From positions 1 through 38,089 of the forward strand of contig CACNXK010000008.1 of assembly GCA_902624425.1 (NCBI GenBank): a DNA stretch of 38,089 bases, written 5' to 3'. The notes beneath the pieces are model-generated. The model was not told the origin of the DNA, did no database searches, and saw only the letters and a list, made by a program, of their open reading frames with translations. The translations under genes were made by a program, and so were the position numbers. The first letter of the stretch is position 1, and each line of letters starts with the position of its first letter. The DNA comes from an uncultured SAR86 cluster bacterium (GTDB taxonomy: Bacteria > Pseudomonadota > Gammaproteobacteria > Magnimaribacterales > D2472). Below, one piece after another: positions 33,545 through 37,455 of this stretch.

Positions 33545-35629
33545 GTGGAAAAACACTTAGAACCAAAATCAATATCATTTGAATATGGGGGTAAAGAAAT
33601 TACCCTCGAAACAGGAAGAATTGCTAGACAGGCAACCGCTGCTGTACTTGTAACAGTAGATCAAACACAAGTACTTACAACCGTTGTTGCAAAAAAAGAG
33701 GCCGATCCTGGCAAAGATTTCTTTCCACTTGCAGTTTTTTATCAAGAAAAATTTTATGCGGCTGGAAAAATTCCTGGGGGATATTTCAAAAGAGAAGCAA
33801 GACCAACCGAAAAAGAAACACTCACTTCGAGATTAATCGATAGACCTATAAGGCCGTTGTTCCCAGATGAATTTAAAAATGACGTTCAGATAATGTCTAC
33901 AGTTATCTCATCTGATAAAGAATTTTCTTCTGACATCGCAGCTATGATTGGAGCATCTGCTGCATTGTCCTTGTCTGGTGTTCCTTTTCAAGGACCAATA
34001 GGCGCTGCAAGAGTTGGTTTTATTGATGGAAGTTATGCACTCAATCCATCCAAAGAAATCATGGATCAATCCTTCCTTGATATGGTTGTTGCTGGGACGT
34101 CTGAAGCAGTCCTAATGGTTGAGTCTGAGGCAAATGAGCTAAATGAAGACCTCATGCTTGGTGCAGTATTATTCGGCCATAAATCTATGCAAATAGTTAT
34201 AGATAAAATAAAAGAATTTAAAGAAATAGTTGGGGTTGAAGATTGGATAATTGAAAAAGATGAAGAAACACCAAGATTTTTATCTGAACTTGAAGCAGAT
34301 TTTTCATCTAAAATTGAAGAAGCATTCACAATTGCTAAGAAATCAGAAAGATCTGAAGCAATTAATGCGGTCCGTCTTGAAATTCTTGAAAAATACGAAG
34401 ATCTTGATGAATTAACCATTGGAAAAGTAATGGGAGCATTTAAAAAGCTTGAAAGTCAAATAGTAAGAAAGAATATTCTTTCAGGAAAACCAAGAATTGA
34501 TGGACGAGACCCAAATACAGTGAGACAACTTACCGTTGAAACTGATGTTCTTAAAAGAGCACACGGCTCAGCTTTATTCACAAGAGGCGAAACTCAGGCA
34601 TTGGTTGCTGCAACTCTTGCATCTCCAAGAGATGCTCAAAGACTTGAATCACTTGATGGAGAAGAGCATGACCATTTTATGCTTCACTACAACTTCCCTG
34701 CATATTGTGTGGGTGAGATTGGAATGCCAATGGGGCCAAAAAGAAGAGAAATTGGTCATGGAAATTTAGCAAAAAGAGCTATTAAAGGTGTTCTCCCTGA
34801 TTTCGATGCTTTTGGATATACAGTTCGAATAGTATCTGAAATAACAGAATCAAATGGCTCAAGCTCAATGGCAACTGTTTGTGGTACCTCTTTATCATTA
34901 ATGGATGCTGGAGTGCCATTAACAGCTCCTGTTGCTGGAATAGCAATGGGGTTAATTAAAGATGGTGATGAATTTGCAGTTCTTACAGATATCCTTGGAG
35001 ACGAGGATCACCTTGGCGATATGGATTTTAAAGTTGCTGGTTCTGAGAAAGGCATAACTGCTCTTCAAATGGACATTAAAATTGATGGAATCAATGAAAA
35101 AATAATGGATGAGGCTCTAAGTAGTGCAAAGGAAGCAAGAATGCATATTTTAGAAAAAATGAATGAAGTGCTTTCAAAGCCTAAAGAGCTAGCTTCAGAT
35201 GCTCCATCAATGCAAAAATTTATGGTCAATAAGGATAAAATTAAAGAAATTATTGGAAAGGGCGGAGCAGTTATAAAGTCTATACAGGAAGAATCTGGTG
35301 CAGTAGTAGATATAAACGATTCAGGAGAAATATCGGTGTTTGGTGATAACCAAGCGAAAATGCAAGCAGCACTTGATATTATTGACAAAATTATCGAAGA
35401 ACCAGAAGTTGATAAAATTTACGAAGGTACCGTTGTGAAGATCGTAGACTTTGGAGCTTTTGTAAATATCTTACCTGGTAAAGATGGACTACTTCATATT
35501 TCAGAGATTTCTGAAGAGAGAACTGAGGATGTTTCAGCTGTACTCGAAGAAGGGCAGAAGGTTACTGTTAAGCTAATAGGCTTTGATAGAGGCAAAATGA
35601 AGCTATCAATTAAAGCACTTAGTAAATAA
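33545..35629 (+). CDS. pnp: Polynucleotide phosphorylase
   Basis: A 3'-to-5' phosphorolytic exoribonuclease, a core part of the RNA degradosome. Two RNase PH-like domains flank a helical linker. The second has the catalytic region [17 protein letters not shown], with [18 protein letters not shown] further on. A KH domain (about 558-615; [15 protein letters not shown]) and an S1 domain (about 622-690; [18 protein letters not shown]) close the protein. Its 694 residues compare with 711 in E. coli. The start is GTG (33545), three bases after the rpsO stop. Two stem-loops follow the stop. Confidence 0.97.
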
Positions 35630-35640
35630 ATATCTAAAAG

Positions 35641-35676
35641 TCAAATTACGTTAAAAATACAATTAATGTAATTTGA
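35641..35676 (+). terminator. Long AU-rich stem-loop after pnp
   Basis: TCAAATTACGTTAA at 35641-35654 pairs with TTAATGTAATTTGA at 35663-35676, giving a 14-bp stem with one G-U pair and an 8-base loop. There is no T-run after it, so it may protect or process the pnp mRNA 3' end rather than terminate on its own. Confidence 0.5.
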
Positions 35677-35683
35677 AATCAAC

Positions 35684-35697
35684 AACCAATTTTGGTT
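35684..35697. repeat. Perfect palindrome AACCAATTTTGGTT
   Basis: Six-base arms around TT, seven bases after the long stem-loop and 39 bases before the first small membrane-protein gene. It may be a second small hairpin or a protein-binding site in that gene's upstream region. Confidence 0.35.
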
Positions 35698-35736
35698 TCA
35701 TATGCGTGTTAACCATTACCTTTATAGGGGGGAATT

Positions 35737-35955
35737 ATGGAAACTGGATTGAAAATGATAATGGATATAGTAGCAAGTCTTACTAAGATTCTTGTTGCTG
35801 TTATCGGATTAGGTGTTGTAGCTGGTATCGTTTTTGGCGATGCTTTCTTTGTCGGCGATGTTTTAGGTAATCTTCTAGGTGTTGTTTCAATGCTTGGTGA
35901 TGCTGGACTAGTCGGACTACTTGTAGCTGCTATCTTAATAGGATTGCTTAAGTAA
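35737..35955 (+). CDS. Small two-helix membrane protein A (unknown family)
   Basis: A 72-residue, very hydrophobic protein I do not recognise. A short N-terminal amphipathic stretch is followed by a membrane segment (about 17-34, KILVAVIGLGVVAGIVFG), a central motif DAFFVGDVLGNL (35-46), the turn MLGDAG and a second segment (about 55-71). It has a single acidic cluster and a terminal Lys. An unusually strong Shine-Dalgarno, AGGGGGGA, lies just before the ATG (35726-35733), suggesting high translation. It is about 36% identical, by hand alignment over roughly 56 positions, to the gene at 36011. Possible roles include holin-like, small channel or accessory subunit, but none is supported by a motif. 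Confidence 0.75.
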   Translation: METGLKMIMDIVASLTKILVAVIGLGVVAGIVFGDAFFVGDVLGNLLGVVSMLGDAGLVGLLVAAILIGLLK

Positions 35956-35967
35956 TCATTTATTCCT

Positions 35968-35995
35968 TCAAAGGGAGATTAATTTCTCCCTTTGA
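35968..35995. terminator. Strong 11-bp stem-loop between the two small membrane-protein genes
   Basis: TCAAAGGGAGA (35968-35978) and TCTCCCTTTGA (35985-35995) form a perfect 11-bp stem with a 6-base loop. It has a GC-rich middle but no clean T-run after it. It may terminate or attenuate transcription after protein A, or protect its mRNA, lowering expression of protein B. Confidence 0.6.
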
Positions 35996-36010
35996 TCTTA
36001 AAACTTTAGA

Positions 36011-36247
36011 ATGAAGTTAGATTTTTATTACTCATTAAATAAAATCAAAAGCTACCTTAAACAGGTAACCGATGTGTTGCTTGTTGTAGTTGCAGTTGCA
36101 TTGTTGCTCGGGGTTCTTTTTGGACCTGATGCTCCATTTGTTGGAACTGTATATGCAAATCTTGTTAACATTTTAGATACTATTGGCGATAGTGGAGTAG
36201 TAGCGCTCGTATCGCTAATAATAATTTTTTTAATAAACAAGAAGTAA
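36011..36247 (+). CDS. Small two-helix membrane protein B, paralogue of A
   Basis: A 78-residue protein with a basic N-terminal stretch (MKLDFYYSLNKIKSYLKQ), a membrane segment at about 21-38, the motif PDAPFVGTVYANL (39-51), the turn TIGDSG and a second membrane segment at about 61-75, ending NKK. The pattern FG-x-DA-x-FVG-x-V-x-x-NL-(8)-GD-x-G-x-V is shared with protein A, so the two arose by tandem duplication. The ATG has no good Shine-Dalgarno, unlike A. It ends 4 bases before the 3' end of the opposing tRNA-Met gene. Function unknown. Confidence 0.7.
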   Translation: MKLDFYYSLNKIKSYLKQVTDVLLVVVAVALLLGVLFGPDAPFVGTVYANLVNILDTIGDSGVVALVSLIIIFLINKK

Positions 36248-36251
36248 GAAT

Positions 36252-36328
36252 TGGTGGCTATGGGTGGAATTGAACCACCGACCCCAGCGTTATGAGTGCT
36301 GTGCTCTAACCATCTGAGCTACATAGCC
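36252..36328 (-). tRNA. Elongator tRNA-Met (CAT)
   Basis: The 77-base minus-strand gene has acceptor GGCTATG/CATAGCC, D arm GCTC-AGATGGTTA-GAGC, T arm GGTGG-TTCAATT-CCACC and encoded CCA (36252-36254). The anticodon arm is CAGCA-CTCATAA-CGCTG. Its last pair is A31-C39, a mismatch, where E. coli has A-U. Overall it resembles elongator tRNA-Met more than the lysidine-type tRNA-Ile(CAT), which is the main alternative. Confidence 0.9.
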
Positions 36329-36339
36329 ATTGACCCGAA

Positions 36340-36367
36340 ATAATAATTTACTCTGAATAAAAGTCAA
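36340..36367 (-). promoter_or_regulatory. Sigma70 promoter for elongator tRNA-Met
   Basis: On the minus strand TTGACT (36367-36362) and TATTAT (36345-36340) are 16 bases apart, each five of six to consensus. The -35 overlaps the ychF stop codon. Transcription would start around 36333, just before the tRNA. A GC-rich stretch (CGGGTC) follows the -10, as in stringently controlled stable-RNA promoters. Confidence 0.65.
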
Positions 36368-37455
36368 ACATTAAATTTAAAGTGAGCAATATCTCCATCT
36401 TGAAAAACATAATCCTTTCCTTCTAATCTTAATTTACCATTTTCTTTTGAACCCACCTCACCACCAAAAGAAATATAGTCTTCAAAGCTTACAACCTCTG
36501 CCTTAATGAAGCCTCTTTCAAAGTCTGTATGAATTCTTCCAGCTGCTTGCGGAGCAAGAGAACCACTTTTTACTGTCCATGCACGCAACTCATTTGGACC
36601 AGCTGTAAAAAAGGTATCCAAACCAAGGATTTCATAGCCTTTCTTTATGATTTTATTGAGGGCTGGCTCTTTAATTCCTTCTAACTCTAAAAAATCTTTT
36701 TTATCTTGTTCATCAAGACTAGCTATTTCTTCCTCAAGTTTTATCTGCACCTCAATGACATCTTGATTCATACCCTTAGCATACTCATTAAGATCATTGA
36801 GATTTTTTTTTGAGTGCTCTGTATCAGATACATTTGCAATAAAGAAAATAGGTTTTACAGTAAGAAGCTGAAAAGATTTAATTATTTTTATATCCTCTTT
36901 ATTTGAGTATTTATCTAATTTTATAAAATCACCAGATTCTAGAGTCTTTAAACAATCCTCAATTAAAGTAAATTCATTTGCTAAATCTTTATCACCAGAT
37001 CTTAATTTTTTTTCTATCTTTTCTTTTCTCTTATTCAAGGTTTCAAGATCAGCAAAAATCAGCTCAAGATTAATTACTTCTGCATCTCTAGTTGAATTAA
37101 TTTCTCCATCAACATGAGTAATATTATCGTCATCAAAACACCTTACTACATGGGCTAATGCATTCATTTCTCTTATATTTGATAGAAAACTATTCCCAAG
37201 ACCTTCTCCCTTAGAGGCACCTTTTACTAATCCAGCAATATCAACAAGATTCAAAGTTGTAGGAATGACTTTTTTTGCATTTACAATTTCTTGTAAGGCA
37301 TTGAGCCTTGAATCAGGTACTTCAACTACCCCAATATTTGGCTCAATTGTGCAGAAAGGAAAATTCTCTGCAGGGATCGAGGATTGTGTTATTGCATTGA
37401 ATAAGGTTGATTTTCCAACATTTGGCAAACCAATAATTCCACATTTAAAACCCAT
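36364..37455 (-). CDS. ychF: Ribosome-associated P-loop ATPase YchF (OLA1 type)
   Basis: Obg-family nucleotide hydrolase that binds ribosomes and prefers ATP in relatives. The P-loop is GLPNVGKST (residues 8-16), followed by switch region DIAGLVKGASKGEGLGNSFL. The base-recognition site is NVSD in place of a GTPase NKxD, consistent with the ATP preference of the subfamily. A coiled-coil insertion spans about 130-200, and a C-terminal TGS domain follows with AAGRIHTDFERGFIKAEV. The length of 363 residues equals E. coli YchF. It follows pth after 1 base, giving rplY-pth-ychF. Confidence 0.96.
   Translation of the reverse strand: MGFKCGIIGLPNVGKSTLFNAITQSSIPAENFPFCTIEPNIGVVEVPDSRLNALQEIVNAKKVIPTTLNLVDIAGLVKGASKGEGLGNSFLSNIREMNALAHVVRCFDDDNITHVDGEINSTRDAEVINLELIFADLETLNKRKEKIEKKLRSGDKDLANEFTLIEDCLKTLESGDFIKLDKYSNKEDIKIIKSFQLLTVKPIFFIANVSDTEHSKKNLNDLNEYAKGMNQDVIEVQIKLEEEIASLDEQDKKDFLELEGIKEPALNKIIKKGYEILGLDTFFTAGPNELRAWTVKSGSLAPQAAGRIHTDFERGFIKAEVVSFEDYISFGGEVGSKENGKLRLEGKDYVFQDGDIAHFKFNV

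Follow-up and report, generated by a model that had tools for sequence, protein, structure and literature searches.

Small membrane proteins common to marine hosts and T4-like phages are already a known kind, an example being the hli proteins of cyanobacteria and cyanophages, with one membrane helix and a chlorophyll-binding motif. Other described systems of similar scale include the class II holins, which have 65-95 aa, two hydrophobic segments and both ends in the cytoplasm (holins being diverse as a rule), and the Imm protein of phage T4, which stops the DNA entry of a second phage. In the puf operon, the small membrane-protein genes that come first are followed by a hairpin, which determines how far their products exceed those of the later genes. 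In this work we describe a pair of small hydrophobic genes, here termed A and B, from an uncultured member of the SAR86 cluster, which ranks among the most abundant bacteria of the surface ocean. The pair is nearly universal in SAR86, yet nameless in the libraries searched, and searches of the open literature brought up no paper that could be recognised as dealing with it.

Results

The pair lies near one end of the window, by which we mean the whole stretch of 38,089 nt that was analysed, taken from a genome (G000) of 963,240 bases in 31 contigs. Its features are collected in Table 1.

Table 1. Features in and around the A/B locus, with positions in the window.
Feature	Position	Strand	Basis or remark
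pnp (polynucleotide phosphorylase)	33545..35629	+	ORF; conserved neighbour 5' of A
Probable A promoter (TTGAAA, 17 nt, extended -10 TGG-TTTCAT)	35673..35701	+	
Strong Shine-Dalgarno of A, AGGGGGGA	35726..35733	+	Sequence and duplex energies
Gene A, 72-aa hydrophobic protein, predicted helical hairpin	35737..35955	+	ORF, searches, AlphaFold, dN/dS
Intergenic hairpin A-B: 11-bp stem (35968-35978 / 35985-35995), 6-nt loop	35968..35995	+	
Gene B, 78 aa, paralogue of A, basic N-terminal segment, without Shine-Dalgarno	36011..36247	+	
tRNA-Met (CAU), between B and ychF	36252..36328	-	ARAGORN, Rfam
ychF, conserved 3' neighbour, opposite strand	36364..37455	-	ORF

An earlier note on this DNA had pointed out a tandem pair of small hydrophobic ORFs after pnp, about 36% identical when aligned by hand, and had proposed that they are paralogues. 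Both ORFs are present, and 55 nt separate the stop of A from the start of B. Compared directly by BLAST the two proteins are 44% identical (17/39, E=3e-7), and A used as a query against its own genome retrieves B at 38% over residues 5-70 (E=6.3e-8), so that A and B are paralogous. The gap between pnp and A also holds a spaced inverted repeat (GTCAAAT...ATTTGA, 35639-35677) that recurs in relatives and overlaps the predicted -35 of A; it may be a pnp terminator or a regulator site.

Within the SAR86 family of the window, A finds a match at E<=1 in 97 of 107 genomes, five of these being weak (E 0.01 or worse; G022, G023, G024, G026, G089), and at least two matches in 91 of 107 by hand count; all 19 family genomes that are at least 90% complete match. 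Seventy family loci were read, selected for an A match rather than drawn at random, and B follows A in every one. Wherever the neighbours are in reach, pnp lies 5' of A on the same strand (69/69 loci, about 1 kb off in L095) and ychF lies on the opposite strand (69/69). At the level of the order, a profile (A1) matches 99 of 121 genomes and 36 of the 39 that are at least 90% complete; the three that gave no match, G282 (97%), G488 (93%) and G500 (93%), again gave none with a further profile (A3) at E<=0.1, and a re-search of 27 matchless genomes with A3 added four weak matches. In a second SAR86 family (f183) the pair sits behind pnp in three of the four loci read (L161-L163), the other (L164) giving a weak partial match, while in three loci from two further families (L104, L159, L160) the pair sits elsewhere.

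Both genes are under purifying selection: among equal-length pairs with dS between 0.1 and 1.5, dN/dS has a median of 0.21 in A over 542 pairs and of 0.12 in B over 210 pairs. Together with the constant presence of B behind A in the loci read, these values argue that the pair is not there by chance. The broken copies of pnp, ychF and B alike in one locus (L082, of genome G043) suggest errors in the sequencing or assembly of the genome concerned.

The signals for expression differ sharply between the two genes, as the earlier note had seen when it described an exceptional Shine-Dalgarno for A and none for B. In the window, the duplex with the anti-Shine-Dalgarno sequence has an energy of -11.0 kcal/mol for A and +0.6 kcal/mol for B. 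Over the family loci the median for A is -11.0 kcal/mol, with 70/70 at -6 or better, a count owed in part to the choice of the A start as an ATG with GGGG before it, whereas the window itself needs no such choice. For B, whose start was chosen by length alone, the median is +0.7 kcal/mol with 0/69 at -6 or better, as against a median of -0.9 kcal/mol and 15/350 in random 17-mers. An extended -10 of the form TGnTnnnAT lies 25-60 nt 5' of A in 70/70 loci compared with 10% of 1,400 shuffles, and a -35 matching at least four of six positions precedes A in 50/70; a simple sigma-70 scan of the window did not include the predicted A promoter in its output. The earlier suggestion that paralogous subunits are made in unequal amounts thus stands as regards paralogy and unequal translation signals, the amounts themselves being predicted from sequence.

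Between the genes, the stem-loop of 11 bp reported earlier proves to be a constant of the locus: a hairpin of 9-15 pairs occurs there in 70/70 loci, with a median fold energy of -19.6 kcal/mol and shuffle z-scores from -2.9 to -8.4 (median -5.3, 67 distinct sequences). Compensatory changes support 9 of 10 consensus pairs in 23 sequences chosen from the 67 distinct ones. At least five T occur within the eight bases 3' of the hairpin in just 34/70 loci, so termination is not its sole role, and the candidate function of pure terminator was kept in part only.

With regard to structure, the earlier description of A and B as two-helix proteins needs slight revision: AlphaFold predicts with low confidence three helices in each, a long one, a second and a short third (mean pLDDT 74.6 for A and 70.5 for B; pTM 0.38 and 0.37). 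Because of the low pTM, packing was not considered predicted and only secondary structure was used. The invariant glycines of A (G24, G26, G34, G57, G60) fall in or beside predicted helices. Among 54 A, 64 B, 46 phage and 9 other sequences, none has a loop of net positive charge between its hydrophobic segments; the mean charge of the C-terminal segment is positive in every one of these groups; the N-terminal segment averages +2.56 in B, -0.70 in A and +0.07 in the first of two phage groups described below. From these charges we infer that both ends probably lie inside, in the cytoplasm, less surely for A: with the N-terminus negative in A and neutral in the first phage group, the assignment is drawn from B, from the loop and from the C-terminus. 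Across 62 loci, distances in A and B correlate beyond what pnp accounts for (partial r 0.575, a value that none of 2,000 permutations equalled), and as permutation was by taxa, shared ancestry is not fully removed. The correlation is consistent with contact between A and B and does not demonstrate it.

Fold searches with these low-confidence models gave only generic helix bundles as a clue to function, a lead that was dropped: A matched ribosomal S20-like bundles alone (Z <=7.2), B had no match in the PDB, and a viral fold library gave nothing below E 7.6.

The family of A and B is unnamed in every library searched, and the earlier note, which recognised no described family, was supported: Pfam, NCBIfam, PHROGs and PADLOC gave no credible profile match for A, B or their relatives. 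The nearest approaches were B against TrbL/VirB6 of Pfam (E 0.021, 15.1 bits, cut-off 25.9), an isolated low score of one B relative against ECF_trnsprt (E 0.0066), DUF5989 for 5 of 19 B relatives (best E 0.008), a best NCBIfam match at E 0.014 and a best PADLOC match at E 0.013 among six members. Profile searches of the PDB returned a best E of 0.4 with A1, none with A5, and with A2 long RecA chains at a whole-chain E of 3.7e-7 in which no stretch passed alone. Four queries (B and three relatives, not A) found no match at E<=1 in 50,697 phage records, and plasmids queried with one A relative and one phage copy carried no relatives.

Beyond SAR86, profile A5 run class-wide against 369 genomes found eight matches at E<=1e-4, of which three are in SAR86, and profile A2 gave weak class-wide matches in G188 and G303 (E 0.0035 and 0.005, over 25-28 positions). 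Phylum-wide, profile A5 recovered G000 only among 398 genomes, and a search with one copy in 299 genomes recovered G000 and two weak matches inside frames of about 330 aa. In the order of genome G430, 46 of 80 genomes match. In one of its genera (g428) 23 of 27 genomes match and 19 of 27 have at least two copies by hand count; in another (g120), of small, mostly one-contig genomes, 0 of 12 match, possibly a loss that came with intracellular life. In the loci of this order that were read by eye, every copy comes with a ribosome site of its own and with a terminator-like hairpin, and the copies are adjoined by a ubiA-like gene. Tandem pairs also occur in G325 and G208 (family f104), again with a hairpin between the copies by eye and with 2 of 6 genomes of that order matching, and in G446 (family f134). 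In the G446 locus (L255:3-638) a gene judged by eye to encode a PilT-like ATPase lies two genes 3' of the pair. G333, from an order in which 1 of 4 genomes match, has one copy; there (L105:1165-1716) the family member bears a long lysine/threonine-rich repeat tail, for a total of 183 aa, and lies beside a hemL-like gene.

Relatives are also present in uncultured T4-like phages. In IMG/VR, a phage copy as query gave 109 stretches, of which 80 were kept (group 1), and another bacterial copy gave 87, of which 80 were kept (group 2); a scan with a G430-order copy gave a list of four stretches, which overlaps with that of the phage-copy scan. Each of the 160 kept stretches, which were read as stretches rather than whole contigs, holds one copy. 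The constant co-occurrence of two copies, which the earlier note had proposed to check, nearly holds within SAR86 and fails for phages and some other bacteria, whose single copies imply that the family does not strictly require a partner of the B type. Short-pattern viral scans with an A relative and B found no close viral relatives; close viral relatives of the SAR86 genes were thus discarded as a candidate, though profiles link the two.

The best 80 of the 109 group 1 copies are 65-100% identical to the query. The gene lies directly behind a gp23-like major capsid gene in 11 of 80 loci, and its 3' neighbours, called with a simple ORF caller, comprise six recurrent families (47, 7, 7, 6, 5 and 3 loci) besides five that occur once. 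Behind the gene, the sequences viewed by eye show a terminator-like hairpin. Directly 5' of the family member, 14 of the 80 loci of this group have a carbamoyltransferase-like gene, and in the uncultured viral contigs L245 (4342-5358) and L246 (6204-7808) a glutamine synthetase-like and a GroEL-like gene, respectively, adjoin it. One group 1 capsid protein matches Pfam Gp23 at E 1.1e-82 and is 67% identical to the capsid protein of Flavobacterium phage immuto. Marine Far-T4-like viruses are predicted in one paper (PMC7198788) to infect Bacteroidetes. Group 1 probably belongs with these viruses.

For group 2, 12 of the 80 loci were viewed by eye for the 5' neighbour, which resembles dUTPase in eight, a phosphoribosyltransferase in three and gp23 in one (those of L273, L267 and L304 were confirmed by PHROGs), and in most loci viewed the gene lies among replication genes. 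Among 20 viewed, also by eye, some show a hairpin behind the gene and others a promoter-like stretch. In L304, whose gp23 has 58% identity with its counterpart in Methylophilales phage Melnitz, the family gene stands between gp23 and the tail tube gene; Melnitz has a 189-residue protein, taken as the tail tube, directly behind gp23 with no family gene between, and immuto has a 90-residue protein behind gp23 that by eye lacks such helices. Hence in both L165 and L304 the family gene occupies a place empty of it in the nearest cultured capsid relative. A ribosome site at -6 kcal/mol or better precedes the phage gene in 48/79 group 1 and 72/80 group 2 loci. In general, presence in phages points to a membrane job in the cell that phages also want done.

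To assess whether these groups form one family, a profile of each of five groups was set against 8,800 block-shuffled decoys. The profile of A scores B, G430-order, phage group 1 and phage group 2 sequences at 20.4 bits or more, its best decoy reaching 15.4; the B profile gives A a median of 13.0, below its best decoy (25.6), and the phage group 1 profile gives A a median of 20.9, below its best decoy (24.1). The links of A to the other groups depend on the A profile, direct BLAST and, as intermediates, the copies of the G430 order. In a tree of 73 rows picked by hand, with few columns and bootstrap support not settled, A and B are mostly separate (two changes each), each phage group forms one side of a branch, group 2 goes with the G430-order copies, the f104 and f134 copies stand together, and a long-branched f112 copy falls among B. 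This pattern suggests that tandem doubling probably happened more than once.

Discussion

The reading that we prefer, to which we give a probability of a little under 0.4, is that A is the major and B the minor member of a pair of abundant, oligomeric inner-membrane helical hairpins with a general membrane function that phages supplement. A and B would represent an undescribed inner-membrane family of about 70-80 aa, with a spanning helix, an acidic helix outside and a short second spanning helix, and probably with both ends cytoplasmic. Its own promoter and strong ribosome site would cause A to be made in large amounts, and the hairpin behind A would end or protect the A message and so leave less B. 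The conserved small residues probably pack the proteins into homo- or hetero-oligomers, which may serve as a scaffold, leak or small pore, and T4-like phages would carry one copy as a useful extra gene. It is the signals, the conserved glycines and the A-B distance correlation beyond pnp that suggest an abundant oligomeric membrane protein with A in excess.

Three other explanations bear on the same observations. In superinfection exclusion or another anti-phage role, which we judge unlikely, the phage copy would block entry of a second phage's DNA and the bacterial copies would be domesticated and always on; two phage groups carry the gene, in several contexts and in most loci with its own ribosome site, which fits such a role, as does the lack of any match in the 12 genomes of genus g120, which we take to be intracellular symbionts. 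However, the constancy of the bacterial copies beside pnp is unlike the patchy occurrence of defence genes, and PADLOC gave no credible match. A holin-like pore, with the phage copy as a two-helix, both-ends-in class II holin and the bacterial pair as holin and antiholin, seems to us distinctly improbable. Size, two hydrophobic segments, an acidic loop and a basic C-terminus speak for it, along with weak similarities to PHROG holins (B, E 0.36; one phage copy, E 3.2) and to Pfam holins (single B relatives, E 0.081 and 0.13), but the best 80 group 1 copies are more alike than is usual for holins, no lysis gene is named among the annotated phage neighbours (many neighbours being without annotation), the group 2 gene sits mostly among replication genes, and a lethal pore behind so strong a ribosome site as that of A would be hard to keep.

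We give very little credence to a pilin-like subunit pair, whether of the VirB2/TrbC kind or from some other secretion system or type IV pilus, even though the two paralogues are small and hydrophobic, a single A relative out of 19 touches Pfam T4SS_pilin (E 0.87), B touches TrbL/VirB6 and the G446 pair has a PilT-like gene nearby. A signal peptide is lacking as judged by eye, the SAR86 neighbours are pnp, tRNA-Met and ychF with no secretion gene beside the pair, and phages carry single copies of a protein that has no credible family match.

The occurrence of the same protein in many uncultured T4-like phages implies that its function bears on how phages handle host membranes. It is possible, if doubtful, that this undescribed family, core to open-ocean SAR86, present in other Gammaproteobacteria, repeatedly doubled in tandem and captured by two groups of T4-like phages, forms an oligomeric membrane device, whether a pore, a leak or a barrier to entry, at the centre of the struggle of these bacteria with their phages. 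Both proteins are small enough for expression tests in a laboratory strain.

Among the known systems, the hli proteins too are small, hydrophobic, multicopy in marine hosts and present in T4-like phages; they are set apart by description, having a single chlorophyll-binding helix, and A and B have no Pfam match toward them. T4 Imm is likewise phage-encoded, of about 80 aa and with two hydrophobic segments, whereas the A/B family is also a core bacterial gene pair, and the PHROG scans gave no match bearing the Imm name, although PHROGs may hold no family so named. To judge from sequence, class II holins appear similar in hydrophobicity and in the charge of loop and C-terminus and differ from A in the charge of its N-terminus; family matches to them are weak (E 0.08 or worse), and A and B are, again, core bacterial genes. 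For expression the parallel is the puf operon, where a hairpin also follows small membrane-protein genes. Here the hairpin stands between two paralogues, and by analogy with puf its effect on the RNA may be to favour the first of them.
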